IMG/VR virus record: IMGVR_UViG_3300046005_001513
Coordinates: 1-64,000 of that record
Reading direction: 5' to 3' (one strand)
Length of the DNA stretch: 64,000 nt
DNA from: a virus
Shown here: positions 3,021-28,545 of the stretch, piece after piece
How positions within the stretch are numbered: the stretch's first letter is position 1
Layout: each line of letters opens with the position of its first letter
The notes under the pieces: generated by a model
What the model was told of the DNA's origin: nothing
Seen by the model: only the letters and a program-made list of their open reading frames with translations
The model's database searches: none
Translations under genes and position numbers: made by a program

Positions 3021-3114
3021 GGTTTAGATTCTAGTTCATGTGACAGGTGAACTACGACCTACATCCTGTAGGAAGTACCCTTTGGGGTACATTGATTATT
3101 ATTTGGAGTTAGAA
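3021..3114 (+). promoter_or_regulatory. Triple-hairpin leader, copy 2
   Basis: Almost identical to the copy at 2211: AGTTCAT (3033-3039), loop GTGACAG (3040-3046), GTGAACT (3047-3053), then CCTAC/GTAGG and GTACCCTTTGGGGTAC (3075-3090), TTGGAGTT, ATG 3115. Differences from copy 1 fall mostly in loops and linkers. Confidence 0.75.
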
Positions 3115-3624
3115 ATGATTAACATAGAAAAATTAACCCGATTAGGTTACATGACTTTGATTGAAGATGAAGACTTGGGTGTAATTCATGAGTTTGTTGC
3201 GCCCTTGTGGTTGTTGCACCAATCGAAGTGGGAAGGACACATCACTGATTTGCGTGGTGTGTTACCTGATGGTAAAACGGGTATTGATTGGGAAGATGAG
3301 AAGTACGACTTGACAGAGAATAATTGGGTTCAGTTAATTAAGACACCAACGTTGACGATGCCTTGTAATAGAACGAGGGTAGCGAATTTGCTTGATTACC
3401 TTGCATTTGAGGGGGAGGATTTTGAGCAGAATCCGACAACAAATCACATTTGGAATAGTATTCAAATTGTGAGGCACATTTGGAATGTGCAGTGGCAGAG
3501 CGAGTTTGTGAGAACACATTTGGGAATTGTGCTTGAGTATTTGATTCAGTACGAGAAGGGTTCTGAGTCTGAAATTCTTGCTCAAGCGATTGAGTTGCGT
3601 GATGAGTATGGATTTGATGAGTAG
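3115..3624 (+). CDS. Unknown early protein (169 aa)
   Basis: Starts at ATG 3115 after TTGGAGTT; the open frame upstream is leader. Acidic protein beginning MINIEKLTRLGYMTLIEDED, with tryptophan-rich helical segments near the C-terminus (HIWNSIQIVRHIWNVQWQ). No family recognised. Confidence 0.65.
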   Translation: MINIEKLTRLGYMTLIEDEDLGVIHEFVAPLWLLHQSKWEGHITDLRGVLPDGKTGIDWEDEKYDLTENNWVQLIKTPTLTMPCNRTRVANLLDYLAFEGEDFEQNPTTNHIWNSIQIVRHIWNVQWQSEFVRTHLGIVLEYLIQYEKGSESEILAQAIELRDEYGFDE

Positions 3625-3723
3625 ATAGGTTCTAGGGCATACGAACAAGTTTTGTGTGCCTTACTGCCTAGCAATTCTGTTAGGAAGTACCCCAAAGGGT
3701 ACTTTGATTATTTGGAGTTAGAA
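3625..3723 (+). promoter_or_regulatory. Triple-hairpin leader, divergent copy 3
   Basis: The architecture is kept while the sequence differs. GGCATAC pairs with GTGTGCC, CCTAGC pairs with GTTAGG, and the palindrome is in the opposite orientation (GTACCCCAAAGGGTAC, 3687-3702). It is followed by TTGGAGTT and ATG 3724. Maintenance of three stems with changed sequence argues for a structural role. Confidence 0.65.
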
Positions 3724-4032
3724 ATGATTAAGTTATCTGATTATGTAGAATTAAATATGTTTGACCATACGCAGTACAAAGTTATTGCGTTGCCTATTCT
3801 CTTAGTGGTAGGGGAACGGGAAATTATTGGTGAGTATCGTCACCATCTTCTTTTCGATGTGATTTCTTCAAAAAGCGAATTAGAGTCAGCTGGGTATTGC
3901 ACGAAAGTTAAGTACAAAGGGTTGTTCCCGTTTCGTTTTGGGAATTACCTTGTATCAAACAAGACGCTGCTTTGCAGAGCTGAAGGCTCTGACAAGTGGA
4001 TAAAGATTGACGTTGAATGGAGTATAAAATGA
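3724..4032 (+). CDS. Unknown early protein (102 aa)
   Basis: Starts at ATG 3724 downstream of leader copy 3. Product MIKLSDYVELNMFDHTQYKV and 82 more residues, sheet-rich, no motif recognised. Its last codons overlap the next start. Confidence 0.6.
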   Translation: MIKLSDYVELNMFDHTQYKVIALPILLVVGEREIIGEYRHHLLFDVISSKSELESAGYCTKVKYKGLFPFRFGNYLVSNKTLLCRAEGSDKWIKIDVEWSIK

Positions 4033-4331
4033 GTATCGAACCAATTTCTGTATCGCAACAGAGTAAAATTGCGAAAAACGTGATTGCGGCTTGCAAGGAC
4101 ATCAGTAAACTGAACAAGACGGGTTACAACTTTGTGTATCTTTGCCCTGGGTTCATAGCCCACTATAACCTGCATGGTTTCATTGATTATTACTCTGAGA
4201 ATAGTCTTGCTGAGGACATACTTCGTAATCGTTCAATCAACATGTGGGGCAATTTCGCTCCACATGAGCAGAATTACGAGTATTACATGAGCAAAAAAGC
4301 TGTGTACATGCAAATCTTGGAGGCATTATGA
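4029..4331 (+). CDS. Unknown early protein (100 aa)
   Basis: ATG 4029 overlaps the previous stop in an ATGA junction, with GGAG 9 bases upstream. Product MSIEPISVSQQSKIAKNVIA and so on; aromatic-rich C-terminal half. No family recognised. Confidence 0.6.
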   Translation: MSIEPISVSQQSKIAKNVIAACKDISKLNKTGYNFVYLCPGFIAHYNLHGFIDYYSENSLAEDILRNRSINMWGNFAPHEQNYEYYMSKKAVYMQILEAL

Positions 4332-4483
4332 GTAATTACGGATTAACCCAACAACCTAGTGTGTTGGAGTTGGAAGCTCGTATGCTCGAAATTGAGCTTG
4401 AAAAGGCATTGTTAATGGTTGAGTTATTGACTAAGAAATTGGCAATCACTCGTGTACAGATTGGAATGGAGAATAAGTTATGA
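4328..4483 (+). CDS. Coiled-coil small protein (51 aa)
   Basis: ATGA overlap with the preceding gene and GGAGG upstream (4319-4323). Residues 12-45 form a heptad-like leucine/glutamate helix (LELEARMLEIELEKALLMVE), so a coiled coil is likely. Role unknown. Confidence 0.55.
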   Translation: MSNYGLTQQPSVLELEARMLEIELEKALLMVELLTKKLAITRVQIGMENKL

Positions 4484-4623
4484 GTTTTGAAGACGCGCAG
4501 TTCATTTACGACAACATGTCTGAGCCTGACTATCCAGACGAAGACGAAGTTGAACAGGATTATGAGCCTGACCTCGAAGAAGAAGAATTTGATTTAGACG
4601 CTGAGTGCGTTTGGGACATTTAA
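4480..4623 (+). CDS. Very acidic 47-aa protein
   Basis: ATGA overlap with the previous gene. About 20 of 47 residues are Asp or Glu and only three basic-type positions are evident, giving a very low predicted pI. Small acidic early phage proteins include DNA mimics that block restriction enzymes (Ocr is the known example). That role here is only a hypothesis; no homology is seen. Confidence 0.55.
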   Translation: MSFEDAQFIYDNMSEPDYPDEDEVEQDYEPDLEEEEFDLDAECVWDI

Positions 4624-4629
4624 CTAAGA

Positions 4630-4654
4630 AGGGCGTAGGTACGAACTACGCCCT
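4630..4654 (+). terminator. Intercistronic hairpin
   Basis: GGGCGTAG (4631-4638) pairs perfectly with CTACGCCC (4646-4653), plus an outer A-T pair. There is no U-run, so attenuation, transcript processing or stability control is as likely as termination. Confidence 0.45.
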
Positions 4655-4680
4655 AACCACAAATTAACAGGAGTAATATC

Positions 4681-5388
4681 ATGGCAGTAAAAAATTATAG
4701 AGGAATTCAAGCGGCATCGCCATACAATGGTGAAGAGTTCATTGAACTATTCAAGATGTATGGCAACGCGAAGGTAGGATTTCCTGCCATCGAAATCGGG
4801 TATTTCCCGCTCAACTTTTTTGAAGAAGATGCGGATGTTGCTGTATGCTATGACTGTAAGCATCGTAAAACCTCGTGTTATGTTGATAAACGTGGTTTGA
4901 TTGCGATGTTCAAAAGTTTTATAACAGGGACGAATTACGTTGAGCAAGTAAAGATGCGTCATTTCAAAAACCGCTTTGTGCGGTTTGGGTTATGGGGAGA
5001 CCCTGTGGTTGTGGGATATGAGCGATGCGATGAAATTCGGAACGCTGCAACGGGTCATGCGGGATATACGCATCAGTGGAGGACGTGTGACCAGCGTTTC
5101 TCAAAACTGATACAAGCATCAGCCGACACTGAGAAAGAGGCGTTAGAAGCCCAGCAGATGGGTTGGAAGACGTTTCGTGTGAAGTTACCAGCCATGGCAG
5201 TCATGGTAGGTGAAGTGGTGTGTCCGAATCAGAAGGACAAAGAAATCAACTGCATCACCTGTGGTATATGTGATGGAGTCACGGCGAATGTTGTGATTGA
5301 TGTGCATGGGTTAGAACACAAGCAGATTAAGTTTGAGAAGATTCAGGCTGATTTAATGGGGGTGGAAAATGTACACGATATTGGTTAG
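4681..5388 (+). CDS. Cysteine-rich conserved phage protein (235 aa)
   Basis: Starts at ATG 4681 after AGGAG. Features in order: VCYDCKHRKTSCYV near residue 55 (Cys-x2-Cys and a further Cys), RFGLWGDP, a GHAGYTHQW motif, an ASAD segment, GWKTFRV, then CPNQ-x5-CITCGIC at about residues 181-195. The Cys pattern looks metal-binding, either zinc or an Fe-S cluster. I recall similar GYTHQW-type proteins from other phages and plasmids, with no assigned function. Confidence 0.6.
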   Translation: MAVKNYRGIQAASPYNGEEFIELFKMYGNAKVGFPAIEIGYFPLNFFEEDADVAVCYDCKHRKTSCYVDKRGLIAMFKSFITGTNYVEQVKMRHFKNRFVRFGLWGDPVVVGYERCDEIRNAATGHAGYTHQWRTCDQRFSKLIQASADTEKEALEAQQMGWKTFRVKLPAMAVMVGEVVCPNQKDKEINCITCGICDGVTANVVIDVHGLEHKQIKFEKIQADLMGVENVHDIG

Positions 5389-26421: not shown

Positions 26422-26495
26422 GGTTACTGTAGCTCAAAAACGAGAGAGCGATTGCGATAAACTCTAGGTTGTCGGTGCAAGTCCGATCAGTAACC
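26422..26495 (+). tRNA. tRNA-like gene with His-type acceptor, anticodon arm atypical
   Basis: GGTTACTG (26422-26429) pairs perfectly with CAGTAACC (26488-26495), an 8-bp acceptor like the extra G-1:C73 pair of tRNA-His. A GCTC/GAGC D-arm and a GTCGG-TGCAAGT-CCGAT T-arm are present. The segment where the anticodon arm should be (about 26450-26470) does not form a 5-bp stem with a 7-nt loop, so the anticodon is not assignable. CCA is not encoded (ACC follows). It may be degenerate, or deliberately non-canonical. Confidence 0.55.
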
Positions 26496-26500
26496 ACCTT

Positions 26501-26577
26501 GGGACAATACCTTAACGGTTAAAGGACTCCGCTCATAACGGATGCAAGTCTCAGTTCAAATCTGAGTTGTCCTACCA
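26501..26577 (+). tRNA. tRNA-Met(CAT) or tRNA-Ile2
   Basis: Acceptor GGGACAA/TTGTCCT, D-arm CCTT/AAGG, anticodon loop CTCATAA with CAT at 26534-26536, T-arm CTCAG-TTCAAAT-CTGAG, discriminator A and encoded CCA. The anticodon stem has one terminal mismatch. No initiator features (GGG:CCC) are present. Whether C34 is lysidine-modified to read AUA cannot be seen. Confidence 0.85.
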
Positions 26578-26936: not shown

Positions 26937-27009
26937 GGGACAGCACTTGGCAAAAAGCTCTGTTTGAAACTCAAGCAACTAACTGGTTCGATTCCAGCCT
27001 GTTCCACCA
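26937..27009 (+). tRNA. tRNA-like gene with encoded CCA, anticodon arm atypical
   Basis: GGGACAG (26937-26943) pairs with CTGTTCC (26999-27005), followed by A and CCA. T-arm CTGG-TTCGATT-CCAG is good. The D region is short, and the anticodon region folds best as GTTTGA-AAC-TCAAGC, leaving no normal 7-nt loop. Identity cannot be assigned. It shares with the 26422 gene canonical ends and a non-canonical middle. Confidence 0.5.
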
Positions 27010-27092
27010 ATGTGTATATGCCTGTCCATATTACCGTTGACAGGGGTTGACAGTGGCATTGTCTGTGGTGCGATACCATCAAAGCGCATCTC

Positions 27093-27158
27093 GGTGGTAA
27101 CGTGAGAACCAACCAGTTTATCAATCGCACAATTTGATAAACACCCAGCTCGCCCACC
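27093..27158 (+). ncRNA. Compound hairpin with pseudoknot potential
   Basis: GGTGG/CCACC (27093-27097 with 27154-27158), GTGAG/CTCGC (27102-27106 with 27149-27153), and a perfect 9-bp stem GTTTATCAA/TTGATAAAC (27116-27124 with 27134-27142). The terminal loop and one stem base read ATCGCAC (27124-27130), complementary to GTGCGAT at 27068-27074 upstream. No known RNA family recognised. Confidence 0.5.
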
Positions 27159-27252
27159 ATGTGTGGAAGGAGTTACGGATTCGGTCAGCGAATCCAGCCC
27201 GTGCTAAGTGAGACCGTGTGGCAACGCAGGTTGAAGTCCTGAAAGCACAAAA

Positions 27253-27280
27253 CTCCAGCTTGCAGAGGTTAAATGCAAGC
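27253..27280 (+). repeat. Hairpin repeat, copy 1
   Basis: Starts CTCCAGCTTGCAGAGGTTAA and ends TGCAAGC. GCTTGC pairs with GCAAGC around an 11-nt loop. Other copies at 27309 and 27570. Confidence 0.75.
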
Positions 27281-27308
27281 AAACACACAAGTGTATAACT
27301 GAATACTG

Positions 27309-27342
27309 CTCCAGCTTGCAGAGGTTAAACGCAAGCACTATC
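27309..27342 (+). repeat. Hairpin repeat, copy 2
   Basis: Same element as at 27253 with one base change, extended by ACTATC as in copy 3. It lies 20 bp upstream of the start at 27362. Confidence 0.8.
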
Positions 27343-27361: not shown

Positions 27362-27559
27362 ATGCAAGAGTTTCAAGAAAGAGTGATTGAAGAGCGAAAT
27401 GATTTAGTTGAAAAGCTAAACAAATTACAAGAATTTTTGGGTAACCCTGAAGCTGTTAGTAACTTAATTCCTGGTGAAGAAGCTCGGTTACATTGCCAGG
27501 CAGACATCATGGAGCGGTACATTGAAGTTCTGGATGAACGTATCCAGTATTTCCAATAA
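27362..27559 (+). CDS. Conserved small helical phage protein (65 aa)
   Basis: ATG 27362 with AGGAG upstream. MQEFQERVIEERNDLVEKLN, a short linker, and HCQADIMERYIEVLDERIQY match a two-helix phage family related to the crAss001_48-type small proteins. Function unknown. It sits between copies 2 and 3 of the hairpin repeat. Confidence 0.7.
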   Translation: MQEFQERVIEERNDLVEKLNKLQEFLGNPEAVSNLIPGEEARLHCQADIMERYIEVLDERIQYFQ

Positions 27560-27569
27560 GGTTAAACAC

Positions 27570-27603
27570 CTCCAGCTTGCAGAGGTTAAACGCAAGCACT
27601 ATC
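27570..27603 (+). repeat. Hairpin repeat, copy 3
   Basis: Same sequence as copy 2 including the trailing ACTATC. Its last bases (27599-27603) are the first bases of the long helix that closes the 27599-27783 RNA domain. Confidence 0.8.
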
Positions 27604-27783
27604 AATAAAGCATCGCTCGAACCATACCGCAATTTGGTTCCTTGCAGCGGTTATTCGTGAGTAAGCGGGACAGTCGAGACCCTGCCCTCATAGCTCGTTC
27701 ATTGAATTCGTAAGGATTCGGGTTACTACGATAGGGATGAGAAACTGACTCGTAGGACGTAGGAAACGGTGCTTTATTGATAG
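27599..27783 (+). ncRNA. RNA domain closed by a 17-bp helix
   Basis: CTATCAATAAAGCATCG (27599-27615) pairs with CGGTGCTTTATTGATAG (27767-27783): 16 Watson-Crick pairs and one U-G. Inside, GAACCA/TGGTTC, CCGC/GCGG, GGG-CAG/CTG-CCC, GAAT/ATTC and GAG/CTC can form local stems, some mutually exclusive. No convincing ORF with a ribosome site. A GCAA-capped terminator follows. This is strong evidence for a structured RNA, but the family is not recognised. Confidence 0.7.
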
Positions 27784-27796
27784 TCCTCCTGAACTC

Positions 27797-27821
27797 AAGG
27801 CTTCGCAAGAAGCCTCTTTTT
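27797..27821 (+). terminator. GNRA-capped intrinsic terminator
   Basis: GGCTTC (27799-27804) and GAAGCC (27809-27814) around a GCAA tetraloop, then TCTTTTT. It may end a transcript 3' of the 27599 domain, or be an internal helix of a larger RNA if read through. Confidence 0.75.
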
Positions 27822-28020
27822 GAAGTGCATTGTCTAAGTGCATTTCACAAAGAATTCATCACACAGTTCTTTATTCTCGCCCTAGAATTAAAACTTGGGA
27901 GTCAGGCTTGTGGACGGTACTGGCGGATAAAAGATCCACTGACTGCTAGGAAGAGACTGGCATCTTAGAGTGTTTAGATTTTGCTTGTCGCAGGGCTTAT
28001 AAATCTAAGAACTTTGTTCT
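27822..28020 (+). ncRNA. Chain of hairpins upstream of the 28084 gene
   Basis: Successive stems: GAAGTGCAT/GTGCATTTC (27822-27846), AAAGAA/TTCTTT (27849-27872), AGTCA..GTGG/CCAC..TGACT (27900-27944), CTAGGA/TCTTAG (27946-27968) and TTAGATTT/AAATCTAA (27974-28008). The last hairpin presents GTCGCAG (27987-27993) in its loop, complementary to the loop of the following terminator. Reads as a long structured leader or an independent ncRNA. Confidence 0.6.
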
Positions 28021-28069
28021 ACCCTTATTAGTTAGAAGACTGCGACCTTCTAGTTGATAAGGGTTTTTT
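28021..28069 (+). terminator. 18-bp terminator hairpin with loop complementary to upstream loop
   Basis: ACCCTTATTAGTTAGAAG (28021-28038) pairs with CTTCTAGTTGATAAGGGT (28047-28064), with a few G-U pairs, followed by TTTTT. The loop ACTGCGAC contains CTGCGAC (28040-28046), the exact complement of GTCGCAG at 27987-27993. A ribosome site (GGAGG, 28075) lies just downstream, so the hairpin can act as an attenuator for the next gene. Confidence 0.75.
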
Positions 28070-28083
28070 ATTATGGAGGTATT

Positions 28084-28545
28084 ATGTCTCATTTAGGTTT
28101 AGATTTAGAGTTCTTGATGGTAGTTATGGCTGGGCTGAATGCAGGTGCTTCATCTTATACACAACTAACTAGGGGTGAAGAGCTAATTCTCAGATTTGGT
28201 AACGACCACGCAGTCATTTTCACAGCAGAAGATTATAATTACCACTTGGCAATGCTTGAGCAAGAGGGTTATCTGCTGTTACACGATTCTAAATACAGAT
28301 TAAGTTTAAAAGGCTGGAGTGTTTTTAATAAGTTGAAATACTTAGACCGAACTGATTCATTTAGTTGGCTGGATGGGGTTGGTTTGGACGATGCTTTAGA
28401 ATACGTTCCATCAGGTTCAGAAGTAATAAAAAGTATCCAGGTTAATTTTGATACAGGTACTATTTACGGTGTCACGAAGGGCGGGGATGTTATAGCCAAG
28501 CATAGGCATAAAAAGGAAATAGAAGTATTGCTGCAAAGCATATAA
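28084..28545 (+). CDS. Unknown protein with winged-helix-like centre (153 aa)
   Basis: ATG 28084 with GGAGG at 28075. The segment MLEQEGYLLLHDSKYRLSLK followed by GWSVFNKL resembles the recognition helix and wing of a winged helix-turn-helix. The C-terminal part (IQVNFDTGTIYGVTKGGDVI) is sheet-rich. It is the first gene behind the attenuator-like structure, so a regulatory product is plausible but unproven. Confidence 0.55.
   Translation: MSHLGLDLEFLMVVMAGLNAGASSYTQLTRGEELILRFGNDHAVIFTAEDYNYHLAMLEQEGYLLLHDSKYRLSLKGWSVFNKLKYLDRTDSFSWLDGVGLDDALEYVPSGSEVIKSIQVNFDTGTIYGVTKGGDVIAKHRHKKEIEVLLQSI

Follow-up and report, generated by a model that had tools for sequence, protein, structure and literature searches.

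The structured non-coding locus described here most likely consists of one or two small RNA genes belonging to the tRNA cluster of a phage, with a putative functional role. On the + strand its most likely organization, as judged from the letters, is a unit A (27568-27822, approximately 255 nt including a pseudoknot at the 5' end) followed by a unit B (27823-28070, approximately 245 nt). It is located in a window of 64,000 nucleotides, the whole stretch of DNA that was analysed, which corresponds to positions 1-64000 within a virus record of 70,383 bases. The locus is indeed folded and non-coding. Its stems, among them two helices of 18 base pairs, the terminator-like hairpins at the unit ends, the absent coding signal and the recurrence of its pseudoknot, with one pair changed on both sides, before tRNA-Trp in Corynebacterium phages are observed, and they are the argument for small RNAs. 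It is this pseudoknot of 30 nt, not the large folded region, that has the best comparative support.

Long helices and coding signal

A closing helix of 17 base pairs had been proposed in the sequence-only reading of this DNA. The helix is present and in fact comprises 18 base pairs including one G-U pair (27598-27615 with 27767-27784). The proposed terminal terminator was found again as a hairpin of 18 base pairs at 28021-28064 (28021-28038 with 28047-28064) with a T-rich tail after it. To judge these helices we used dinucleotide shuffles of the window, with a span of at most 260 nt, G-U pairs allowed and six shuffles only. Helices of at least 18 base pairs occur approximately 0.67 times per 64 kb in the shuffles compared to two within 470 nt here, so that chance is an unlikely explanation.

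The fold of the whole region has a z-score of -5.4, which is mostly due to the long helices. Unit A with its closing helix reaches z = -3.65, whereas the interior of A without this helix behaves like shuffled sequence (z = +0.17) and unit B minus its terminator remains at z = -1.34. In a scan of 200-nt windows z-scores of -3 or lower occur in 31 of 638 windows, and the locus is unexceptional there and not among the most structured parts. The real signal therefore lies in the long helices and not in the stability of the fold as a whole. Further hairpins are also predicted, as had been claimed.

The codon model is negative in all six frames of both A and B, in agreement with the earlier statement that there is no coding signal, and the same model is positive for the neighboring open reading frames (ORFs) at 27362-27559 and 28084-28545. 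The chance ORFs in the locus have no PHROG match. Promoter-like matches in the region are no commoner than in shuffles, and a clear promoter was not found among them.

Two proposed units and their terminator-like hairpins

The body of unit A (27598-27784, + strand) is formed by the closing helix around approximately 150 nt of weakly structured sequence. It is followed by a first hairpin (27798-27822, + strand) detected by the terminator scan. The GNRA-capped hairpin of the sequence-only reading is indeed present at 27798-27815, with a GCAA loop on a 7-bp stem, but together with the following CTTTTTG it is built like an intrinsic terminator. The locus thus divides into A and B, and a single transcript of 470 nt is not implied. 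The body of unit B (27823-28020, + strand) contains several hairpins and ends at the second terminator-like hairpin (28021-28070, + strand), which is found both by the terminator scan and by the helix statistics. Both terminator-like hairpins are strong and well placed. Their form alone proves little, since the three such sites in the region compare to 2.3 expected in shuffles and are therefore not rarer in the latter.

The suspected complementarity between loops was confirmed with a length of 7 bp. It connects GTCGCAG (27987-27993) in a hairpin of unit B with CTGCGAC (28040-28046) in the loop of the second terminator, and the free duplex was calculated at -12.9 kcal/mol. As the complementarity includes the terminator loop, it also speaks for a serious, albeit rather unlikely, alternative: unit B, and perhaps A, could be the untranslated leader of the downstream ORF and the DNA polymerase; the terminator would then limit read-through, and the contact between the loops might serve as a switch. 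This ORF of 153 amino acids (28084-28545, + strand, function unknown) lies outside the RNA and was taken from the ORF list; it has no PHROG or tblastn match and no Pfam match above the cut-off. Its ribosome-binding site (28075-28080) follows 9-11 nt after the end of the second terminator, which would suit an attenuator. What argues against this function is that no convincing competing antiterminator was found, as a blocked 3' arm costs approximately 15 kcal/mol and leaves weak alternative pairing only, that another terminator lies upstream, and that the recurring pseudoknot is tied to tRNAs in the corynephages and not to this ORF.

The pseudoknot element

Three copies of a direct repeat of 37 nt start at 27253, 27309 and 27570. 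From start to start their distances are 56 and 261 nt, and they are thus not arranged head to tail. By direct repeat and alignment each of them corresponds to one copy of the pseudoknot on the + strand. Copies 1 (27251-27280) and 2 (27307-27336) have kept stem 2 with a shortened stem 1. Copy 3 (27568-27597) is predicted to form an H-type pseudoknot of 30 nt with the stems ACCTC/GAGGT and GCTTGC/GCAAGC, and it directly adjoins the helix of unit A, which starts at 27598.

The element shares 28 of its 30 letters with ceetrepoviruses (13 Corynebacterium phage records, E 4e-4), in which it is located 3 nt upstream of tRNA-Trp. The two letters that differ are the two sides of one pair of stem 1, C-G in the window and G-C in the corynephages, so that the pairing is kept. 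In total 11 pairs form in copy 3 as well as in the corynephages, with one compensatory change. The four distinct rows of this alignment are too few for statistics, and the covariation may be regarded as suggestive but not statistically strong. Of 500 shuffles 126 reach the score of the pseudoknot; slid structures stay far below in cells paired.

Relaxed pseudoknot patterns run against viral_contigs and genome_contigs yielded no further convincing member. The matches beyond one contig were judged to be due to chance because most lack stem 1, three have an A/T-rich one and no viral one is near a tRNA. A search with 17 exact letters gave five viral matches, approximately at the chance level by our own estimate. 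The relaxed scan of genome_contigs also revealed no bacterial toxin locus carrying the element.

A blastn search of the locus against phages and plasmids returned the pseudoknot match, a match of the tRNA cluster to T4-like phages and otherwise chance matches, with no DNA-level relative at the usual thresholds. Relatives of unit A or B were found in none of the phages, plasmids and IMG/VR relatives examined, so that the covariation seen is confined to the pseudoknot.

Genomic neighborhood

The locus is surrounded by phage replication genes, namely primase, helicase, an HU-like DNA-binding protein, DNA polymerase and exonuclease (ORF list, PHROGs). The relatives of the DNA polymerase are at approximately 30% identity, with Vibrio phage SHOU24 and Pseudomonas phage PMBT3 at the top. 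No close relative was found in viral_contigs in a search that may leave out records very near the window. The protein-guided search for related phages led to relatives of low identity only, none of which contains the RNA; in L004, L005 and Vibrio phage SHOU24 no such RNA lies between the corresponding genes.

The proposed position of the locus beside tRNA genes holds in the sense of a neighborhood, but not of direct adjacency. A first tRNA gene (26423-26495, + strand) has an Rfam tRNA score of 33.0 bits, above the gathering score, and a second one with a CAT anticodon (26501-26577, + strand) was found by ARAGORN and scores 55.1 bits in Rfam. The latter is the last confident tRNA. The sequence between it and the locus contains a weak tRNA-like element, an ORF of 65 amino acids and other structured-looking sequence. 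The tRNA-like element (26937-27006, + strand, letters TGGTTCGATTCCAGCCTGTTCCACCA) is below the Rfam cut-off with 14.4 bits and E 0.17; its T-arm is good and CCA is encoded, and its D and anticodon arms are poor. A tmRNA was not found by ARAGORN, and the tmRNA models gave matches of 14 bits only, near this element at 26982. By eye the 3' end of unit A is similar to a part of the tmRNA of E. coli, but the tmRNA models are unmatched there and the idea was dropped. For a retron, no RVT_1 match was obtained in the 70-kb record, which is possibly a fragment.

The 65-aa ORF (27362-27559, + strand) lies between pseudoknot copies 2 and 3 and outside the RNA. It is related to crAss001_48 and similar to DenB.1 of T4-like phages (Pfam PF21825, E 1.4e-16; PHROG 774, E 4e-14; also tblastn). 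As the repeat copies flank it, the ORF may be a cassette that can be deleted by recombination. This arrangement, as in a cassette that is gained and lost, leads to another explanation that has to be taken seriously although we give it a low probability: the region could be ordinary intergenic sequence without any RNA gene, made up of insulating terminators, tRNA-like relics and repeats that recombination left around the cassette. It would agree with the interior of A, which is no more structured than shuffles, and with the inconspicuous place of the locus in the window-wide scan. Insulation leaves the 18-bp closing helix unexplained, however, and intergenic filler hardly accounts for a pseudoknot that agrees in nearly all letters, with its pairing kept, between very different phages.

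Other structured or repetitive parts of the window were also noted. The palindrome GTACCC-N4-GGGTAC is present eight times (67, 284, 1013, 2265, 3075, 3687, 6597 and 9224) with a chance expectation of 0.01. All copies lie in the first 9.3 kb and their loop letters vary. Some lie shortly before small ORFs, whose listed N-termini read through them as KYPLGY, and this suggests a repeat with a role in regulation or termination. Positions 1-1060 are largely non-coding and repeat-rich, with A/T-rich DNA enclosed by long inverted repeats (534-559 and 793-818; 26 nt, 88%) and with a perfect direct repeat of 31 nt at 933 and 975. It may represent an origin or a region of early control. At 3100-5000, in or between small ORFs, several fold z-scores are among the lowest of the window, down to -5.8 at 4601-4800.

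Comparison with known RNAs

In the covariance search against Rfam the GOLLD and ROOL models are unmatched and no family except tRNA reaches its gathering score; up to E = 10 only tRNAs are of substance. GOLLD and ROOL are structured phage RNAs which are often found near tRNA islands, and many GOLLD RNAs are longer than 800 nt (PMC12286853). The trait they have in common with our locus is the setting near phage tRNAs, whereas the locus has at most approximately 500 nt and is split by the first terminator-like hairpin. Of the earlier comparison with large ornate RNAs the structured non-coding RNA locus is retained; membership in or close kinship with GOLLD or ROOL is not, given the unmatched models and the internal terminator-like hairpin. 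A large ornate RNA of this type, whether divergent or new, approximately 470 nt long and forming multimers, as ROOL does in its homo-oligomeric cage, would suit the nearby tRNAs, the multi-hairpin fold and the loop-loop complementarity, but is very improbable as the locus is also far shorter than GOLLD and its interiors are not more stable than shuffles.

Two stable RNAs of phage T4, rnaC and rnaD (species 1 and 2), provide a closer comparison in terms of setting. Neither of them is a tRNA; both measure 100-250 nt and are encoded where the tRNA cluster of the phage has its edge. The similarity to our locus is restricted to this setting: the T4 RNAs are stable while those of the window are predicted transcripts, and the sequence similarity of rnaC and rnaD to the region is at chance level only.

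Other RNAs occur in phage tRNA clusters as well. In the corynephages the pseudoknot element is followed by the tRNA and then by a manA-like RNA (47.2 bits, E 8e-10; gathering score 55.2). It is located at 3126-3312 of the Corynebacterium phage record L087 and is well conserved in related ceetrepoviruses. The description of manA covers a marine and cyanophage range (PMC2864571), and the corynephage RNA falls outside it. The manA model RF01745 has no match in the record of the window. By eye, positions 27029-27122 resemble the manA core, with a hairpin CCTGTC/GACAGG, GGTTG and later GGTGGTAACGTGAGAACCAACC. At 27160-27255 a hairpin GGATTCGGTCAGCGAATCC is similar to GGACTCGGTTAGCGAGGTCC, which is part of the manA-like RNA in Corynebacterium phage C3PO. 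A fold z-score of -3.95 was obtained for the 200 nt at 27101-27300.

The tRNA cluster of cyanophage S-CREM1 contains manA together with an abiF motif (RF03085) 4 nt upstream of tRNA-Gly. This motif and the corynephage pseudoknot are alike in being short elements that precede a phage tRNA by 3-4 nt, and abiF is of the antitoxin type. In sequence and fold the two RNAs differ, and the abiF model has no match in the record.

A further comparison concerns ToxI. ToxI and the pseudo-ToxI of phage PhiTE resemble our element, a predicted H-type pseudoknot, in its size, the order of its parts, a repeat unit of approximately 36 nt and in being phage-borne. By eye, the order of parts is AGGU-GAU-UUGC-U-ACCU-UUAA-GUGCA in ToxI and ACCUC-CA-GCUUGC-A-GAGGU-UAAAC-GCAAGC in the element; the ToxI letters match plasmid NC_011767 of Pectobacterium atrosepticum and others at 100%. 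ToxI pseudoknots are 34-36 nt long. In type III ToxI the repeats are arranged head to tail, with a terminator and then a toxin gene behind them, whereas the copies in the window are spaced and no toxin gene follows. The ORFs next to the element are not ToxN-like according to Pfam and PHROGs. The ToxI model RF02519 has chance-level matches elsewhere in the record only, and none in C3PO. As neither the ToxI nor the abiF model is matched, the pseudoknot was filed in neither family.

Potential function

If the locus contributes the small RNAs of a phage tRNA cluster, in a setting like that of T4 rnaC and rnaD, it would most likely give rise to two separately terminated structured RNAs, which would be transcribed and presumably stable. 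In unit A the pseudoknot would stack directly on the RNA closed by the 18-bp helix, and this RNA would end at the first terminator. Unit B would run to the second one. The closing helix could set the ends of A, e.g. via RNase III.

The pseudoknot itself may represent a small protein-binding module. Most plausibly it would act as a decoy similar to an antitoxin and sequester a ribonuclease of the host defense, as abiF motifs or ToxI mimics can. Several observations lead to this idea, which is based on analogy: abiF and manA are found in phage tRNA clusters, T4 forms stable RNAs in such a place, RNA of the abiF type is an antitoxin which works on the AbiF toxin in cis as well as in trans and neutralizes it in trans (PMC12373285), phage PhiTE overcomes ToxIN with ToxI mimics that it expresses (PMC3475682), and phage tRNAs themselves serve against defense systems (PMC11555353). 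The shortened stem 1 in two of the three copies, the unmatched ToxI and abiF models and the failure to find the element in a bacterial toxin locus weigh against the decoy.

The full reading, i.e. small RNAs of a tRNA cluster in two terminated units with a pseudoknot that is perhaps an antitoxin-like decoy, is therefore a tentative one which we consider possible rather than probable. The lack of a clear promoter, the ordinary interior folds, the lack of relatives of A and B and the limitation to one covarying pair speak against it. An even more general proposal would be that phage tRNA clusters are a common home for decoys of RNA-antitoxin defense, that one and the same undescribed pseudoknot decoy is present in the phage of the window and in the Corynebacterium phages, and that unit A, as a new structured RNA, carries it. 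We regard this as quite unlikely.

If the locus consisted only of terminators and relic repeats it would be of little significance. If the pseudoknot is functional, a 30-nt RNA recognized by no current Rfam model would connect tRNA clusters in phages whose hosts are very different, and this would suggest where to seek RNA-based counter-defense.
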